From: a virus
IMG/VR virus record: IMGVR_UViG_3300031566_000102
Span: 1 to 44,140 of that record
DNA: 44,140 nt
Reading direction: 5' to 3' (one strand)
Under the pieces are notes generated by a model. That model did no database searches, had not been told where the DNA came from, and saw nothing but the letters and a program-made list of their open reading frames with translations. How positions within the stretch are numbered: position 1 is the stretch's first letter; every line of letters begins with the position of its first letter. The position numbers were made by a program, and so were the translations under genes. Positions 1,361-39,164 of the stretch are shown in pieces.

Positions 1361-1771
1361 ATGAAAAAAGAAAAAACAATAGAAGATAAGTATATCGGAA
1401 ATAGATTGAAATTGAGAAGAAGCCAATTAGGCGTTTCTCAAACTCAACTTGCTAAGTTTGAAAAATTAACTTTCCAACAAGTTCAAAAATATGAAAGCGG
1501 TGTAAATAAAATTGCTTCAGGTAGACTTTATAGATTTGCAAGAATCTTACATGTTCCAATGAGTTACTTTTATGAAGGAATTGAGGATGTTATCGAAGCC
1601 TCTGAGGACGATAAAATTGCTATTGCTAAGGTTGAGTCTCAAAAGATGGATAAAAGCACTCATAACGACCTTAGGAAGCTTAATTTATTCTTCTTAAAGA
1701 TTAAAAACCCATTGTTAAGAAAGAGTGTTATTGCTCTTGCTAAGAGTTTAGTGGAGGTGAAGGGTGAGTAA
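1361..1771 (+). CDS. XRE-family HTH transcriptional regulator
   Basis: The 136-aa protein has an XRE/Cro-C1 helix-turn-helix over about residues 13-66. It carries the pattern GNRLKLRRSQLGVSQTQLA, then TFQQVQKYESG, then VPMSYFYEG, the form common in alphaproteobacterial repressors. The C-terminal ~60 residues are helical and may mediate dimerisation. No LexA-like autopeptidase domain is present. A purine-rich RBS precedes the ATG. It overlaps the next gene by 8 bases and is probably cotranscribed with it. It likely controls the divergent early promoters at 752-852, but the operators are unproven. Confidence 0.85.
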   Translation: MKKEKTIEDKYIGNRLKLRRSQLGVSQTQLAKFEKLTFQQVQKYESGVNKIASGRLYRFARILHVPMSYFYEGIEDVIEASEDDKIAIAKVESQKMDKSTHNDLRKLNLFFLKIKNPLLRKSVIALAKSLVEVKGE

Positions 1772-2027
1772 TTATGAAATAAGATTGAGAAAAGATGAAA
1801 AAGGAAACTTATTTATAGTGGATAACACGCCTCGTATATGGAGCGATACCTTACAAACATACTACAGACATTGGGTAAAAACGGATACAGGTTGGTTACG
1901 GAAGTGTGCCTTGTTTGAAGAAAAATTTGTAAAGTTAGAAAAAGCTACCAAAAATGAGTGTAAAGAGCTATTAGATTTACTAAGTAAAGAAATAGGAAAA
2001 GATGGTTATACGCTAGTTGAAGACTAA
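1764..2027 (+). CDS. Hypothetical protein, 87 aa, coupled to XRE regulator
   Basis: It starts at GTG (1764) with GGAGG six bases upstream, inside the end of the XRE gene. The 87-aa product has no recognised domain. The N-terminal part looks beta-rich with several Trp (RIWSDTLQTYYRHWVKTDTGW), and the C-terminal third is helical and charged. It forms a two-gene cassette with the XRE regulator, flanked by matching C/G-run hairpins, and may be a partner or accessory of the regulator (inference). Confidence 0.6.
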   Translation: MSNYEIRLRKDEKGNLFIVDNTPRIWSDTLQTYYRHWVKTDTGWLRKCALFEEKFVKLEKATKNECKELLDLLSKEIGKDGYTLVED

Positions 2028-2055: not shown

Positions 2056-2147
2056 ATAAATAATAGGAGTGTGTTCCAACAAATCTCTTCTAAATTTTAA
2101 TTACCCACTCCTAATAATTAAAAGTTTATGTTTATACAACTTTTTCA

Positions 2148-2176
2148 TTGACACTCATAATTTTTAGTATTAATAT
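2148..2176 (+). promoter_or_regulatory. Promoter of the replication operon
   Basis: TTGACA at 2148-2153 is followed, 17 bp on, by an AT-rich -10 region (TAATAT, 2171-2176; not ideal). The start site near 2183 would fall at the first base of the interlocked inverted repeats at 2185. It serves the initiator/DnaB operon. Confidence 0.5.
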
Positions 2177-2184
2177 TAAATTAC

Positions 2185-2261
2185 AAGCTGTGAAAGTTAC
2201 CGATTTTATGAGAATAGTAAAACCTCTTCTAGTTTCACAGCTTACGAGTTTGCTATTCTCA
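2185..2261 (+). promoter_or_regulatory. Interlocked inverted repeats in replication leader (pseudoknot or switch)
   Basis: Two inverted repeats interleave in the order A-B-A'-B'. A is AAGCTGTGAAA (2185-2195) and A' is TTTCACAGCTT (2233-2243), an 11-bp perfect match. B is TGAGAATAGTAAA (2209-2221) and B' is TTTGCTATTCTCA (2249-2261), 13 bp with one G-U. As RNA this gives a pseudoknot or two competing stems at the very 5' end of the replication mRNA, ending 17 bases before the ATG at 2279. As DNA it could be two overlapping operators. Confidence 0.6.
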
Positions 2262-2278
2262 CCTTACTTGGATAAATA

Positions 2279-2962
2279 ATGCCAGTAAAGCTATATAACT
2301 TAGATATTTGGGTTTATAACAGAATAAAATTCTTTAGCGATAAAGGATTGGAATGCTTTGAGAGCAACGACTCAATGGCAAGTCTATTTGGTAGACACAA
2401 AAATAGAATTTCAGCATCAATACAAAAATTGACTAAAGAATGCTATATAAAAAATCTAGGTACAAATAAATACAATCGCAGGCTAACTACTACTGAAAAA
2501 GAAATAAACATTTGCGGTGTTACAATAGACAAAAACGGTGTTACTTTAAACAAAAACAGTGATAACCTAACACCGACTTTGGATAAAGCAATAGACAAAA
2601 ACGGTGTTACTGAATTAACAAAAACGGTGTTAGCTTTAGACAAAAACGGTGATATATATAAAGAATTATATAAATACTTTATAAATGAATATTTAAAAGA
2701 AGAAAAGAAAATAAAAGAAAATAAAGAAGAAAAACTTTCTCATGATTTTATTTTATCAGAAGAAACAAAAAATACTTTGCAAAAAGAAGGCTATGGACAA
2801 GAACAAATTGATAAAACCTTGATAAACTTTAAAGATTATTGGATAAATGGAGATGGGAAAGGAAAAAGAAAAACAAACTGGCAAAGCACGTTTAGAAATT
2901 GGATAAGGAAAAACAAACCTTGGAAAACAGAGGAACATTTTATTAACAGACCAAAATTTTAA
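2279..2962 (+). CDS. Phage replication initiator protein (lambda O-like role), 227 aa
   Basis: Residues 1-75 look like a winged-helix DNA-binding domain (DSMASLFGRHKNRISASIQKL, then a basic RR segment). A central low-complexity linker (about 80-125) contains repeated DKNG. The C-terminus (about 160-222) has the F-x-x-YW and W-x-x-TFRNWIRK pattern seen in DnaT-like or helicase-recruiting ends of phage replication proteins. The linker is encoded by iteron-like DNA repeats, as in lambda O, so the origin probably lies in this gene. DnaB follows 5 bp downstream. It likely opens the origin and loads the helicase. No strong Shine-Dalgarno is visible. Confidence 0.7.
   Translation: MPVKLYNLDIWVYNRIKFFSDKGLECFESNDSMASLFGRHKNRISASIQKLTKECYIKNLGTNKYNRRLTTTEKEINICGVTIDKNGVTLNKNSDNLTPTLDKAIDKNGVTELTKTVLALDKNGDIYKELYKYFINEYLKEEKKIKENKEEKLSHDFILSEETKNTLQKEGYGQEQIDKTLINFKDYWINGDGKGKRKTNWQSTFRNWIRKNKPWKTEEHFINRPKF
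2508..2654 (+). other. Putative replication origin: phased iterons within the initiator gene
   Basis: Copies of the core ACAAAAACGGTGTTA begin at about 2508 (degenerate), 2529, 2550 (degenerate), 2595, 2618 and 2640. The spacings are 21, 21, 45, 23 and 22 bp, close to two helical turns. An inverted half-copy (TAACACCG) sits at 2568-2575 in the double-length gap. The 2618 copy is in a different reading frame from the others (it encodes TKTVL, not DKNGV), so the DNA rather than the peptide is conserved. Confidence 0.7.
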
Positions 2963-2967
2963 AGATT

Positions 2968-4335
2968 ATGGAACTATACAACATAGAAGCAGAGCAAATC
3001 ATTCTTGGAAGTATTATTCAAAACAACGAGTATTTTTTCAAAGTAACTGAAACCATAAAAGCAAACGACTTTTACGAGCCTGTTCATCAAGAATTATATA
3101 AATATCTTGAAAAACAAATTACTTCAGGCGAGCAAGCTAACTCAGTCAACATGCAGAAAATATTTAACTCAAACAAAATTCTAAAAGAACTTGGAGGGCA
3201 AAATTATCTTGGAATAATACTTGGCGTAGCAAGTGGTATATTTGACATTCCAAATCATGCAAGGGAAGTATTAGACCTTTCAAGGAGAAGAAGAGCAAGA
3301 CAACTTGCGGAAAATTTATTAGCTATCGTAAACAGCCCTGAAAACAATAGCGTTGAAATGCTTGACAAAATCAAGACTGATATTGAGAACATCCAAGATG
3401 ATACAGGCTACGAATACAATGTTAAATCAATCTATGAAATAGTTTCAAAGGAAATTCCAGTCATCCAAGAAAACATGCAAAATAAAACTATTTCAAGACT
3501 CAGAACTGGTTTAAAAGACTTTGATGAGAAATTCCACGGCTTAAAAAATGGTGAGCTAACAATTTTTGGCGGTAGACCATCAATGGGTAAATCAACAATT
3601 GCATCACAAATAGGCTTAAATATTGCCAACAGTGGTAAAAATGTTATATTTTTCAGTGAAGAAATGAGCAATGAAATAAATGCTTACCGTACCATTGCTA
3701 ACATCACGAGGGTTAATTCCTATAAGTTTGAGAAAGGTTTTATAAACGAAACTGAATTTAAATTGCTAGAACAAAAAGCAACAACACTAAAAAACACAAA
3801 CTTTTATATTGACGATAGAACAAGCATAACACCTGCATACATGGAAAAAACAATAAGGCGTTTATATAGGAAACTTGGAAGAATTGATTTAGTGATCATC
3901 GACTACCTTCAATTTACAAAAGCTGATGGAAACGAAAAAGACATAAGGCGTATACTTTCCGATATAACTAAAAAGCTAAAAGGACTTGCAAAAAAATATG
4001 ATTGCCCTGTGCTTTGCCTTTCACAGTTAAATCGTGAAGTGGACAAACGCGACAATAAAAGACCTGAAATGTTTGATTTAAGAGATAGCGGCACAATTGA
4101 AGAAGATGCTGATATGGTAGTGTTCTGTTACAGGGCTGAATATTATGAAAAAAAATATCTTGACGGATTAAATGAATTTTCAGAAGACCAAAAAGAGAGA
4201 AAAAATTACCAACTTACAAAGGCAGAACTTGAACGAGATAAAAATACTTGCGAATTAATCGTAAGAAAAAATAGAAACGGTGCTTGTGGCACTGCTACTA
4301 TCAAATACTTACAAGAATTTTTTATTGCATTCTAG
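2968..4335 (+). CDS. dnaB: Replicative DNA helicase, DnaB family
   Basis: The 455-aa protein has normal DnaB length. The N-terminal domain begins NIEAEQIILGSI. A RecA-type helicase domain follows, with Walker A GRPSMGKST near residues 201-209, Walker B IDLVIIDYLQF near 306-316, and the LSQLNREVDKR motif with the DLRDSGTIEEDADMV segment after it. It would act as the hexameric 5'-3' replicative helicase, loaded by the initiator encoded just upstream. No phage primase or polymerase accompanies it, so the host replisome is probably recruited. Translation is probably coupled to the upstream gene because the RBS is weak. Confidence 0.93.
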   Translation: MELYNIEAEQIILGSIIQNNEYFFKVTETIKANDFYEPVHQELYKYLEKQITSGEQANSVNMQKIFNSNKILKELGGQNYLGIILGVASGIFDIPNHAREVLDLSRRRRARQLAENLLAIVNSPENNSVEMLDKIKTDIENIQDDTGYEYNVKSIYEIVSKEIPVIQENMQNKTISRLRTGLKDFDEKFHGLKNGELTIFGGRPSMGKSTIASQIGLNIANSGKNVIFFSEEMSNEINAYRTIANITRVNSYKFEKGFINETEFKLLEQKATTLKNTNFYIDDRTSITPAYMEKTIRRLYRKLGRIDLVIIDYLQFTKADGNEKDIRRILSDITKKLKGLAKKYDCPVLCLSQLNREVDKRDNKRPEMFDLRDSGTIEEDADMVVFCYRAEYYEKKYLDGLNEFSEDQKERKNYQLTKAELERDKNTCELIVRKNRNGACGTATIKYLQEFFIAF

Positions 4336-11126: not shown

Positions 11127-11154
11127 AAGCCCCTTCTCATTCGGGGGCTTTTTT
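11127..11154 (+). terminator. Intrinsic terminator of the early operon
   Basis: AAGCCCC (11127-11133) pairs with GGGGCTT (11144-11150), with a short loop and a run of T at 11149-11154. It lies 56 bases after the GapR-like gene. Confidence 0.85.
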
Positions 11155-14281: not shown

Positions 14282-17200
14282 TTAAGTTCTATTTTGCCAC
14301 ACTTTTATACTGTCCGCTGACAATGTACGAGTAGATCCGTCTGGTGCTAATGCTTGTACAAGCATATAACAATCTAATGATGCTACTGGTATGTGTGTAG
14401 TAATAGTTCCTGCACTAGCTCCGTCAACAAAGAACTCTATTGAGCTTGAAGTTATAAACTTCCAACGTAAATTAACTTTAGAAATTGATGCATTTATCCC
14501 TGAACTTGTCGCCTCACCAGTTCCATCTAAAGTTTTACCCACCCACTTACCTAGTGCTGATGTTGTTGCATTACATTCAAACATTATAAAATAACCAGTT
14601 ACACTATCATACAACCCAACTCTAGCTTTAATAAAAGAAGTATCTGAAATTGTAACATTTGCCTCAAATTCAGGAGCGAGATTTGCATTGAACTGGTGAT
14701 TTACGTTTTGATAAATACTTATATTTGCGTTTTGTATACCTCCTGCAGATAACTTTAGCACACCACCTTTTTGAGTCAAATCTAAACCTACGCTAGTTGT
14801 TCCACTTGCAGGTAAAGTCGCCCAAAGATTAGTATTGTACTCCCAAAATTCATCGTAATAAAATGATTTCGCTTGTCTTATATTCCCACTAACAACCAAA
14901 TCTTTTGCGAGATTTAAATCATCAGCAATAGTTCCTAATGTTGTAATATTTGTTGAACCTGCCCATGTACTTAAGGCGGTGTTTTCAACGTTGCTTAAAC
15001 CAACATCCGATTTAGTTACACTATGTGGATTACCGCTTGTTAATTGACTATGTGTATAAGCAGTATTCCAATTGGTAGAATTGCCACCTGTTGCAGTTAT
15101 CACACCGTTTACGTCAAGTTGTGTTGTTGGAGTTTTGCCGATTCCAAAGTAACCTGTAACAGGTGCAATCAAAACCTTAGCTTGTGCCACTCTTGTTGCA
15201 TCGTCTTCGTCAGTTGAATATTTCTGACTTGCATAACCAATTTGAAAATAATTACTTGAATAAGGTTTTCCAATAAACCAACTTTGTTCACTTCCGATTT
15301 CTACACTATCACATAAAACACCGCTACCTCTTAAGTTTGTATCACTATCAACTAATCTGACAAGAGAAGCAACGTCATTGTTTCCACCACCTTCAATCGT
15401 TAGGATATTTCTAACATTTGGCATAGCAATATATAATTGCGAGTATACAGTTGCGGTATTAGGTGTTCCAATGCATACAGAACCTAAGGAATCTCTAAGC
15501 ATTGTAATTAAATTACTACCGCTACTAGAAGAAGGTCTAACAGTGAACGGAAAGAAGTTACTACCTGAATCTTGAATTTTAAAAGTTTTACTTCCTGATA
15601 AATCCTGCAATACTAAGTCGGTATTGTCGGTGGTTTTAAACTGCCAGCTTCTATCTTGGTCTGATGAAGCGGTAAAACGCAAATATGGATAATTACTACT
15701 AGAGCTTGTAATTTCTAAAAAGGTTGCAGGATCAGACTCGTTTATACCTATTCTTCCTGTCAAACCTTTAATTCTCATGTACTCAGTTAAACTGTCATTA
15801 TTTCCACGTCCACGAATTACAATATCACCGTCGGGCGTTGCTCCATTTCCATCTGTTTTTTCAATCACAAATAAATCATTTGCAGAATCAAAATATATAG
15901 AACCGCCGTCAAGGTTTTTGTCAAACAATAGCTTTCCAGCAGACATCAAAATATCACCCGTATTGTTAATTTCAGGTGTGTATAAAGTTGTACCGTCAAA
16001 GGTTAAAGTTGACGCCGTATCAGCTCTCATTTGGGTTGCATTGTAATACAGTAATCCGTTTGATGTTGGGGTGTCTTGTCTCGTCAATACGACTTGCATA
16101 TCGTTAATAACTGTGGCAGTTGTTACTGTTGCCGAACCTGTTACCGTATTGTTGGTGATCGTTTCTGTCGTGAAAGTTCCATCAACAATTTTAATAGTCA
16201 ACGTACTTCCGTCATCACTTACAACATACCCAGTAGCACCACTTGAATCCCCTTCTATTTCATCGTTCAAATTAAATGAGCCTGTTTTACCTGTATAATC
16301 TAACTCCACGTAATACAAGCCTAAAACAAAAGACGTACGTGTTTCTTCAAAACCAAATGCGAAAGGTAAGGTTGAACCTCTATCAGCTATAACTCCGCAA
16401 AATGTAGAAGTTAAGCCTGCCCCTGTTTCACCAAAATTCAAAGCTAGAAGATTGTCAGCAACAGAAATTCTTTTATCAACTGCGATTTTATCTCCATTTA
16501 CAAACACATTTCCGTTGAATGTGTTGTCGCCTGTGAATGTATTATTTGCGTTCAAATAAGCAACATTTGATAAAGTACCTGCAACATTTATTGACACTCC
16601 ATTTATTTCATAAGCCTGTCCACTTGCTACATTTACGCCTAGGCTTGCTTGGATTTCGCTTGTAAAGGTTTTTATTCCCCCTATAGTTTGATTTCCTGTT
16701 ATTTTAACTAACATGCTGTCATAAGTCGATGAAATATCAAGAATTAGATCATCTCCACTTAATACTTCTGTTATCCTGTTTGTAGTTCCAAGAATATTAT
16801 TTGTTGTAGCAATTATCCCGTCGTTATTTGGAATTGTCAAAGTCCTTGTTGTGCCTGAGGGATTAACATTCGAGACTTGAAATTTTGCACGTTTTGAACT
16901 GTCTAGGTTGTCAAATATAGCAAAAAGATCATCATTAAATTCTGTAATAGCAGCACTTCCTGAACCTCCTGAAAATCCACCAAGTGACACTTTTCTCAAG
17001 TCGATATTATTAACTCCATAAGCAAGTGCTTCATTTGTTATAATTGTTCCACCTTGAATTTTAAAAACGCCTGCACAAATTAAGTAAGCCGACGTAAAGC
17101 CTTCAGGCAAAGAGGTAACAGATAAGTCTGATGAGTCTCTAAAGGCGTCAAGTGCATTTCCATAACTTCCATTAGGCAGCGTTATCAAAAGTTGAGTTTT

Positions 17201-36845: not shown

Positions 36846-39164
36846 TTAATCTCCTAAAACTTTGTTACTACTATTGTTTATAACTTTAATATTGTCGCCT
36901 TGAACATCAAGTGTATTAAATAAATATGAATAAGTCAAGGCAATAGCATCACCCTTATCAGGTGAACCTACTCCTTCCTTCTTCATATCATCTTTACTTT
37001 TTAGCAATATCTGATTGCTTAGTCTGTAGTCGTAAGTTTGTACTTGTAGTTGAAGAACTAACTCTTCATCGTTATCAATTTGCAATCCATTCTCCATTGC
37101 TTCTTTTATTCTAAACCACATTTCAGCTCTTTTGTTAGCATAAAGTAGTTTATTCTCTGCTGCTGCCCCACTATATACAGGTCTACAAGGATACTTATAA
37201 TATTTCAGGAAGTCGATTGGAGAAGAACCAACACCTATTGCATCAATGAATATGTACTTAGTTTTAAACTTATCTGCTACTTTTATTATTTCTTGTGCCA
37301 GTTGATGACCATCTTGGCTTTTAAACTTTAACACTGCCATTATCCTGTCACCTTGTCTAACCGCTATAATTGAGCTATCTCTACCCTCTCTTGCAACATC
37401 AACACCAATAATAGCACAGAACCTCATATAGTTTTGTGATTCAAAGCTTAATGATTTATTGATTAATTCACTTGGTATTACTGTTCTCGTGCTTGAGTTT
37501 TGGAATGCTTCATAAATTGTTGCTGGATATTCTTGCCTAAATTGTCTTAATCCATCAGAAAAGAAGCTTATCTTGTTTCTACGCCAAGCCATTTGTTCGT
37601 CATCAAGGTCGTATGTTTTTTTGTATTCTTCCTCATCTTCATCTAATTTAAAGTTTTCTGATAATTTTAGTCTATATTCGTCTTGCCAGAACCAAGGGAC
37701 AAATATTAGCTCATATTCATTTTTTCCAGCGATTGCATCCATACAGTACTTATGAAACATGTTACCAAGACCATTAGCGGTACTTTCAAGAATTATTTCT
37801 GTCTCGTCCATATCAGGCACAGTCTGCATTAGCCCTGTTTGCAACTCTTCGGTATTTTTCATAAAAGCTACTTCTGACATGTGCAGATATTGAACTGTAT
37901 CAGACCGTCCAACGTTGCCACTTCCAGCAGTTCCGACTCCATAACCACTGTTTAAAATATCAAAGGATAATTCTTTCGCATTTGAAACACCAGTGCTGGG
38001 CTTTATAGCAAGAGGACAGTTATCATGAAAATTCTTCACCTTGCCATAGATAACGGAAGTTGCGTCATCTCTATGTGTAACGATAAAACTTTTAATCCCT
38101 TTTCTATGTATGATTTTCCAATAGTAACGACCTGCTACATAAGTTGAGTTATGAGAAACAAGCCCATTACAAATAAAAGTCTTCTCGCTTGTTTGTAAAT
38201 CTATGACTTTTCGTTCTCCAAGAGGTTTTATAGAAGTCACTTTTGCCCATGCTTGAAAGCCTTCACAAGTCTTAGGCAGTTTTTTACCATTAAATAACTC
38301 TCTTGTGATAAATCTTGATGGACGTGTTAGAATCAAAAGCTTTATAACATCACTAATTCTATCTACTCTTAAAGTGTGTATCTCTTTGTTACCTAGTTTA
38401 GAACTAGTGCCAGCCTTTCTTTTATCAATGCAAGTATAATAATGAATATTATTGTCTTTTAAATATTTGTGCATTCTGTCTAATACATCGCCTTTGCGTT
38501 GGCTAACTCCAATTCTGACTTCAGGATTAGCTCCAAAACTTCCTTCACCGTCTAGCATACCACTAAACCAACCATCCTCAAACGTCTTTTCTCTTTCTTC
38601 TGGCTTGTTGCATAATACACGGATATAATCACCAACCTTTGTATTATTAACTTCTCTCCATTCCGCTCTGTCTCCTCCCCTCTGTTTGCACAAATGCCTA
38701 TGTTCACCAGTTACTACAAGTTTCACTCCTGTGTCTGTTATAACTTCGTAGGTTTGTTTAGTAAGATATGCCTTAGCTTCTATGACTGCTGTTCTAATCT
38801 TTCTTGTTGCTTTTCTTCCTGCCTTGTTTAGCTCTCCAGTATTTTCATCAACTGCAATAATTTTTTCTCCAATCTCTAAATCTTTGATTTGTTTCCATTG
38901 GTAGTTTGCAGTTAATACTTTCGTTTCTGGCGAATAACAACATCCTTGTTGACGCCCCTTCAAAATTATAGCTCTTACTCTTCCTCTCTCTCTCCTCTGC
39001 TTCTCTATTCTCATATGGATATATCTTTGAGCTTGATTCATCTCAAACTTAAGAAGCTGTCCGTCCTTAGTTCCGCCCTTAGTTCTGATTAATAGAGCAT
39101 TTTTTGCAAAGTATCTAAAATCATCTTTTAATCGCTGTCTTTTCTTTTTTTCTTCTTGTTTCAT
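36846..39164 (-). CDS. terL: Large terminase subunit interrupted by an intein, 772 aa (508 after splicing)
   Basis: Walker A GRQQGC-ST is split by the intein: residues 70-75 precede it and 340-341 follow. The ATPase continues with YLHMSE (426-431) as Walker B and LESTANG (459-465) as coupling motif. The nuclease domain has GVDVAREGRD (588-596), FIDAIG (639-644) and SPDKGDAIALTY (734-745) supplying acidic residues. It packages DNA into the prohead and cuts it. The ATP site cannot form until the intein is removed, so splicing is essential for activity. RBS GAAGGTAG precedes the ATG. Confidence 0.92.
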   Translation of the reverse strand: MKQEEKKKRQRLKDDFRYFAKNALLIRTKGGTKDGQLLKFEMNQAQRYIHMRIEKQRRERGRVRAIILKGRQQGCCYSPETKVLTANYQWKQIKDLEIGEKIIAVDENTGELNKAGRKATRKIRTAVIEAKAYLTKQTYEVITDTGVKLVVTGEHRHLCKQRGGDRAEWREVNNTKVGDYIRVLCNKPEEREKTFEDGWFSGMLDGEGSFGANPEVRIGVSQRKGDVLDRMHKYLKDNNIHYYTCIDKRKAGTSSKLGNKEIHTLRVDRISDVIKLLILTRPSRFITRELFNGKKLPKTCEGFQAWAKVTSIKPLGERKVIDLQTSEKTFICNGLVSHNSTYVAGRYYWKIIHRKGIKSFIVTHRDDATSVIYGKVKNFHDNCPLAIKPSTGVSNAKELSFDILNSGYGVGTAGSGNVGRSDTVQYLHMSEVAFMKNTEELQTGLMQTVPDMDETEIILESTANGLGNMFHKYCMDAIAGKNEYELIFVPWFWQDEYRLKLSENFKLDEDEEEYKKTYDLDDEQMAWRRNKISFFSDGLRQFRQEYPATIYEAFQNSSTRTVIPSELINKSLSFESQNYMRFCAIIGVDVAREGRDSSIIAVRQGDRIMAVLKFKSQDGHQLAQEIIKVADKFKTKYIFIDAIGVGSSPIDFLKYYKYPCRPVYSGAAAENKLLYANKRAEMWFRIKEAMENGLQIDNDEELVLQLQVQTYDYRLSNQILLKSKDDMKKEGVGSPDKGDAIALTYSYLFNTLDVQGDNIKVINNSSNKVLGD
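38148..38939 (-). mobile_element. Intein with LAGLIDADG homing endonuclease domain in TerL
   Basis: The 264-residue intein spans TerL residues 76-339. It starts with Cys (CYSPETKVLTA) and has block B-like VVTGEHRHLC. It ends with FICNGLVSHN followed by Ser, giving the His-Asn end and a Ser nucleophile as +1. A single LAGLIDADG-type motif (WFSGMLDGEGSF, 199-210) and following helices indicate a homing endonuclease, likely acting as a dimer or decayed. It interrupts the Walker A loop between Cys75 and Ser340, a highly conserved target. Confidence 0.9.

Follow-up and report, generated by a model that had tools for sequence, protein, structure and literature searches.

Gene context of the replication operon

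The window, by which we mean the whole 44,140-base stretch of viral DNA analyzed, belongs to a podovirus-like phage, as marked by its genes for a head-to-tail connector and a major head protein. The structural genes are on the minus strand, and the early region runs on the plus strand, where the replication initiator (227 amino acids; 2279 to 2962) is followed by a DnaB-like replicative helicase as the second gene of the operon (2968 to 4335) and then by a DNA methylase, a YqaJ-type exonuclease, RecT, and a resolvase-like protein. Residues 142 to 213 of the initiator, in its C-terminal part, matched primosomal protein and replication initiation protein entries of PHROGs (phrog_3992, 2.4e-7; phrog_1408, 7.8e-7). 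Iteron-like direct repeats were found inside the initiator gene at 2503 to 2650, with the word AACGGTGTTA exact at 2534, 2600, and 2623 and degenerate copies between these positions. The lambda O gene likewise carries in-gene iterons and an origin, and the repeats at 2503 to 2650 are probably the replication origin of this phage. Similar iteron-like repeats are present in a relative (L002), whose early region also has tandem repeats encoding NTGDWNTGYYNTG-like units (L002, 6961 to 7200).

Upstream of the operon lie an XRE-type regulator (1361 to 1771, plus strand; Pfam HTH_3) and an 87-amino-acid ORF (1764 to 2027, plus strand), the latter preceding the intergenic stretch ahead of the replication genes. 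This pair is flanked by hairpins at 1300 to 1332 and 2028 to 2055 with C-run/G-run stems, the only such stem pairs in the window, and their loops are mutually reverse complementary (TCTTATTGAA and TTCAATAAGA). A CACTCMTAWTWWTTA-like word occurs three times in 110 bases, at 2057 to 2071 (minus strand), 2106 to 2120 (plus), and 2152 to 2166 (plus), and the third copy falls inside the replication promoter. Three 16-mers as alike as these copies arose in 4 of 400 shuffles of 2028 to 2184, a count to be read with the pattern having been derived from the same three copies. The words are perhaps operators of the XRE-type regulator.

By consensus, a sigma-70-type promoter for the replication operon is located at 2148 to 2176 on the plus strand, with a TTGACA −35 element at 2148, a 17-base spacer, and a TAATAT −10 element at 2171 to 2176, matching 10 of 12 consensus positions. 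The predicted transcription start, which follows from this consensus, is at about 2183 to 2184.

Elsewhere in the window, an intrinsic-terminator-like hairpin (11127 to 11150; 8 pairs and a T run) was found intergenically in the early gene run before the resolvase-like gene. A large ORF upstream of the portal gene (36846 to 39164), judged by its position probably to be the large terminase, contains an intein/Hint module (Pfam Intein_splicing, 6.7e-10). Repeat-bearing ORFs with SYxNGDYxYQTKDGI units are copied at both contig ends (43 to 716 and 43448 to 44016; 537 bases, 88% alike), and the contig may therefore be a circular or complete genome broken within the repeat array.

Interlocked inverted repeats at the start of the replication message

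The first 77 bases of the predicted replication message contain two interlocked pairing elements. Arm A (AAGCTGTGAAA, 2185 to 2195) is complementary to arm A' (TTTCACAGCTT, 2233 to 2243) at all 11 positions, and arm B (TGAGAATAGTAAA, 2209 to 2221) forms 13 pairs with arm B' (TTTGCTATTCTCA, 2249 to 2261), all on the plus strand. The DNA complementarity of B and B' is 12/13; at the odd position the sense RNA has a U·G pair and the antisense RNA an A/C mismatch. The paired arms are separated by 37 nucleotides (A and A') and 27 nucleotides (B and B'). A' sits within the loop of the B:B' hairpin, and the order along the leader is A-B-A'-B', a pseudoknot-type topology. The spacers measure 13 nucleotides between A and B, 11 between B and A', 5 between A' and B', and 17 between B' and the initiator ATG at 2279. 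The initial annotation had described 11-bp and 13-bp interlocked repeats at 2185 to 2261, and both the coordinates and the order proved exact, as did the 17-base distance to the initiator; its placement of the block about 2 bases past the start site also agrees with arm A beginning 1 to 2 bases after the start predicted from the promoter consensus.

To score such arrangements, G-C pairs were given 3, A-T pairs 2, and G-T pairs 1, and the weaker of the two stems was taken. The leader interlock scored 26, the highest value in the window, and 21 when Watson-Crick pairs alone were counted. Among 3,000 dinucleotide shuffles of 2183 to 2278, none reached 22 and one reached 20, and a score of 24 was not reached in any of 60 shuffles of the whole window. 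The earlier claim that the arrangement is improbable by chance was thus upheld, with the caution that these shuffles overstate its significance, because the real window contains 6 interlocks scoring at least 22 against 0.08 expected. The runner-up scored 24 and falls within a long ORF (15070 to 15165). On both strands of 11 other phage loci (191,116 bases; 11 of 20 loci, the remainder consisting largely of overlapping copies, either of a single virus or of the window), a score of at least 24 was found in none and 22 in one. The arrangement is real and unusual, and its ingredients are ordinary. As candidate repeated binding sites the arms were discarded, since words resembling A or B occurred in the window as often as expected by chance.

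A leader ORF overlaps the initiator start

Overlooked in the initial annotation was a 23-codon ORF (MRIVKPLLVSQLTSLLFSPYLDK; 2208 to 2279, plus strand) that begins with ATG at 2208 and ends with TAA at 2277 to 2279, in a frame open from 2184 up to that TAA. Its stop overlaps the initiator start in the sequence TAATG, the last A of TAA being the A of ATG. The ORF extends over B, A', and B'. Its start codon is at the edge of arm B, to which the U and G of that codon belong. An overlapping ATG-started ORF of at least 20 codons occurred in 105 of 20,000 leader shuffles, a post hoc statistic that is suggestive only; the count was 240 of 20,000 for ATG-started ORFs of at least 20 codons ending at −9 to +6 and 860 of 20,000 when GTG and TTG starts were also permitted.

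The ribosome-binding signals are poor. A weak GGA is located 6 nucleotides upstream of the initiator ATG, and pairing of the initiator start with the anti-Shine-Dalgarno (anti-SD) sequence was −3.1 kcal/mol, within the 10 weakest (ties counted) of 47 mechanically picked start codons with a median of −5.8. The statement that the initiator lacks a good ribosome-binding site (RBS) was therefore broadly right. The value for the leader ORF was poorer still, at −2.1 kcal/mol.

Predicted folding of the leader RNA

Calculated without loops, the A:A' and B:B' helices are nearly equal in energy (−19.1 and −19.7 kcal/mol). With the RNA 3' end at 2243, the best predicted fold consisted of A:A' with a small inner A+U hairpin (−16.1 kcal/mol); with the 3' end at 2263, A:A' was replaced by B:B' (−19.4 kcal/mol), whose stem was lengthened by predicted pairing of CUC at 2224 to 2226 (plus strand) with GAG at 2246 to 2248. 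The minimum free energy of 2184 to 2290 was −23.7 kcal/mol (z = −2.67), a value equaled in 1 of 200 shuffles, and for the opposite strand z was −1.92, with 8 of 200 shuffles as good. Folding thus predicts that A:A' would form first and that B:B' would then either displace it or coexist with it as a pseudoknot. When the helix energies were added by hand with a pseudoknot penalty of 9.6 kcal/mol, the total came out below either hairpin alone, favoring coexistence. Full coexistence is nevertheless uncertain, because the 5-nucleotide A'-B' loop would have to cross the 11-pair helix, which is tight unless end pairs fray.

The leader state is predicted to matter for one start codon and not for the other. 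In the B:B' state, the leader ORF AUG had its U and G fully paired; in the A:A' state, the G was free (0.98), with the A and U 0.11 and 0.12 unpaired in a weak hairpin. Over the initiator start, a small hairpin is predicted at 2264 to 2290 (plus strand; UUACUUGG pairing with CCAGUAA, AUG in the loop), and it paired the GG of the SD in all modeled states with context to 2340. The two G residues were unpaired at 0.01 and 0.12 to 0.14, that is, ∼87 to 99% paired, irrespective of leader state, and access to the initiator AUG was alike whether the leader was free, forced into A:A', forced into B:B', or folded with all four arms kept unpaired. An alternative route, direct sequestration of the initiator RBS, appeared in the 107-nucleotide fold as pairing of UUACCGA (2197 to 2203) with the SD, resembling an off state, and was rejected when it gave way to the local hairpin on adding 50 downstream bases.

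Of the earlier proposal of a pseudoknot or two-state switch setting initiator synthesis, the competing helices of nearly equal energy, the position at the start of the message (as set by the promoter consensus), and the initiator gene immediately following stood, and a direct on/off switch of the initiator RBS did not, since predicted SD and AUG access was equal across leader states. The control point would more plausibly be at the leader ORF, because its start rather than the initiator RBS is predicted to be altered by the leader state. Something must open the initiator RBS, since the weak SD stays paired in the local hairpin.

Occurrence in related phages

Viral contigs were scanned with the initiator, two alignments of the initiator with its L002 relative (A1 and A2), and DnaB, and genome contigs were scanned with A1 and A2. 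Initiator relatives were found only in L002, L003, and L004, which represent one kind of virus and are 65 to 73% identical over the N-terminal part; no relatives were detected in genome contigs or plasmids, and in phage records the initiator gave just 40- to 45-residue matches of <60% identity in 22 records. No close DnaB relative was present in the viral contigs. The region upstream of the initiator is alike among the three relatives and differs from that of the window, and no interlock was found in L002 or L003. L002 has a promoter-like TTGACA and a 66-codon ORF with an SD-like AAGGAG, which ends at 4002 and so overlaps the initiator start (ATG at 3971) by 32 nucleotides. An upstream ORF that overlaps the initiator start thus recurs in position in L002, with neither the ORF nor the stems common to both.

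Searches of phages, plasmids, and viral contigs turned up no homologue of the leader. With 2140 to 2330 as the query, the sole blastn match was 26 nucleotides over the promoter (E = 0.6) in an uncultured gut phage represented by two records, and there was no match in plasmids; the 72,556 plasmid records also held no leader or initiator protein match. Searches of viral contigs for the A-A' and A-B-A' patterns gave no match. The B-B' pattern matched two unrelated stretches (L010 and L011), which were taken as chance: one is on a G+C-rich contig that contains a local palindrome, and the other precedes a gene beside a terminase-like ORF. One portal fragment (L009) was 99% identical to that of the window, on a 4.3-kb contig without the initiator. 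Among more distant phages with a related DnaB or portal, those that are annotated have initiators inside operons or of other kinds, and no comparable interlock was seen at these loci. Rfam 15 gave 0 matches at the gathering score across the whole window.

Proposed control of initiator synthesis and alternative explanations

We tentatively favor, while holding it short of probable, the explanation that the leader is a cis-acting RNA-level control of initiator synthesis that works through a coupled leader ORF. The nascent leader RNA would fold A:A' first, with the leader ORF start codon weakly paired. Once B' emerges, B:B' would form, displacing A:A' or joining it as a pseudoknot, and the start codon would be buried. 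Any ribosomes that nevertheless entered the leader ORF would open arms B, A', and B' together with the small hairpin at the initiator start, terminate at UAAUG, and begin again at the initiator, whose synthesis would thereby be held low and made dependent on leader ORF translation. We infer the translation of the ORF, its coupling to the initiator, and a regulatory input, which could be a protein, a host factor, or folding kinetics only. In support of this model are an interlock far above that of leader shuffles and unequaled in the 11 other loci, a block from A to B' that begins after the predicted start site and is complete before the initiator, a leader ORF that takes in B to B' and ends in TAATG, the predicted succession of two nearly equal helices with its effect on the leader AUG, the weak and paired initiator SD, and a B pairing that is complete in the sense RNA only. 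Counting against it are the failure of the searches to turn up a homologous leader that would show covariation or a conserved ORF, the different upstream region of the initiator's relatives, the post hoc nature of the ORF statistic, the leader ORF's own weak SD, and the partial pairing that A:A' leaves at its AUG, and no trans-acting partner for the leader was found.

The same topology would also suit a pseudoknot that is bound by a phage protein (the initiator, a single-strand-binding protein, or a repressor) and shuts initiator translation, with the leader ORF incidental. The A-B-A'-B' order and the hand-summed energy fit this explanation, as does the T4 gp32 operator, in which a pseudoknot precedes an unstructured stretch around the start (PMC535899). 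Against it, the 5-nucleotide loop is tight, the arms are far longer than the 28-nucleotide T4 element, the stretch from B' to the ATG is a predicted hairpin rather than an open A/U-rich tract, and no binding protein was identified; we consider it unlikely. About equally unlikely is a lack of any function, the arms being two inverted repeats that arose by chance or persist as a relic in the A+T-rich intergenic leader. Such a view draws on the arrangement having been found in a single virus and on nearly as strong interlocks inside ORFs of the same window, and is countered by the shuffled leaders, none of 3,000 of which matched it, and by the exact position between start site and start codon.

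Lower still in our estimation, and improbable, is an action on RNA polymerase or on mRNA stability, as a put-like antiterminator or a protective 5'-end stem. Arm A begins at about +2, there is a terminator-like site within the early gene run (11127 to 11150), and the size and place match HK022 putL, whose fold takes in nucleotides 3 to 72 right behind its promoter (PMC9378689). However, put consists of two adjacent stem-loops, which interlocked arms are unable to form, and the Rfam search returned nothing for the leader. An equally poor prospect is that the dyads act as DNA, with the XRE-type regulator (1361 to 1771) or the initiator binding them as operators or as a portion of the origin. The regulator gene directly upstream and the iteron-like repeats in the initiator gene, which point to a nearby origin, speak for DNA sites. 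Usual XRE operators are spaced unlike arms that lie 37 and 27 nucleotides apart, neither arm recurs in the window above chance, and B needs a U·G pair for completeness; moreover, the CACTCMTAWTWWTTA-like words upstream of and within the promoter are better operator candidates.

The leader ORF model suggests a plasmid-like translational brake on phage replication. In its fullest form, which we regard as doubtful, an iteron-type phage initiator would be run like those of low-copy plasmids by a 23-codon ORF, gated by a pseudoknot or two-state leader, and restart at UAAUG, with cotranscriptional folding alone setting the dose and without antisense RNA. To our knowledge, the post-transcriptional setting of the amount of a phage replication initiator has been little explored compared with plasmids. 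If the model is true, the plasmid copy-number logic of leader ORF, coupling, and pseudoknot would here be joined to a phage initiator with in-gene iterons, as plasmid-style control that dispenses with antisense RNA, in a case known from one virus and without conservation across the relatives found.

Comparison with known systems

Among phages, parallels are offered by T4 gene 32 and HK022 putL. The T4 protein gp32 shuts translation on its own mRNA. In T4 and RB69, gene 32 has a pseudoknot operator in the 5' leader of a phage replication gene (PMC535899), but that pseudoknot is of ∼28 nucleotides and followed by open UUAAA repeats, a tract that includes the RBS and is bound cooperatively, whereas the leader described here has 24 pairs and a start region predicted to be a hairpin (2264 to 2290), and its stretch from B' to the ATG lacks UUAAA repeats. 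HK022 putL is likewise a structured RNA of ∼70 nucleotides at the very start of an early transcript, folding from nucleotide 3 to 72 just past the promoter (PMC9378689); it differs in consisting of two adjacent stem-loops that act on RNA polymerase to promote terminator read-through, whereas the arms here are interlocked. Titles and abstract openings in the open-licence literature gave no phage initiator leader of the present kind.

The initial annotation had likened the locus to plasmid replication controls. That likeness holds for a leader ORF that overlaps or abuts the initiator start, as in the plasmid type, here the putatively translated ORF at 2208 to 2279 with its TAATG, which makes the comparison more specific. 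It was not seen to extend to the antisense RNA or to the RBS: a consensus scan found no minus-strand sigma-70-like site of at least 9/12 between 2195 and 3012, and hence no suitably placed promoter for a copy-number system of the classical plasmid type, and the predicted RBS access is independent of the arms. In IncFII/R1 plasmids, tap encodes a leader peptide of ∼24 codons whose translation is coupled to repA, much as the leader ORF here has 23 codons. IncFII/R1 also has the CopA antisense RNA and its target hairpin, for which no counterpart was seen here, and the leader here has the interlock instead. The initiator mRNA of IncI-alpha plasmids has the leader ORF repY next to the initiator. 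In ColIb-P9, translation of repZ depends on a 5' pseudoknot that the antisense Inc RNA blocks. A pseudoknot governs initiator translation in both IncI-alpha repY-repZ and IncB/L/M/K, and the topology here permits one; the leader here differs in that Inc blocks the pseudoknot there, with no antisense promoter seen here, and in that the pseudoknot allows translation from the downstream RBS there, whereas RBS access is predicted to be arm-independent here. In IncI2 repR-repA with PcnR, the repression target is a stem-loop in the leader ORF just upstream of the initiator, which is alike, and it is bound by a FinO/ProQ-family protein, which is different; no protein of that family was found among the scanned proteins, which were part of the window's ORFs. 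None of these systems matches in every defining feature. Plasmid initiator leaders are the nearest in logic, and the leader is best regarded as analogous to, and not as a proven member of, the plasmid tap-repA, repY-repZ, and repR-repA arrangements.
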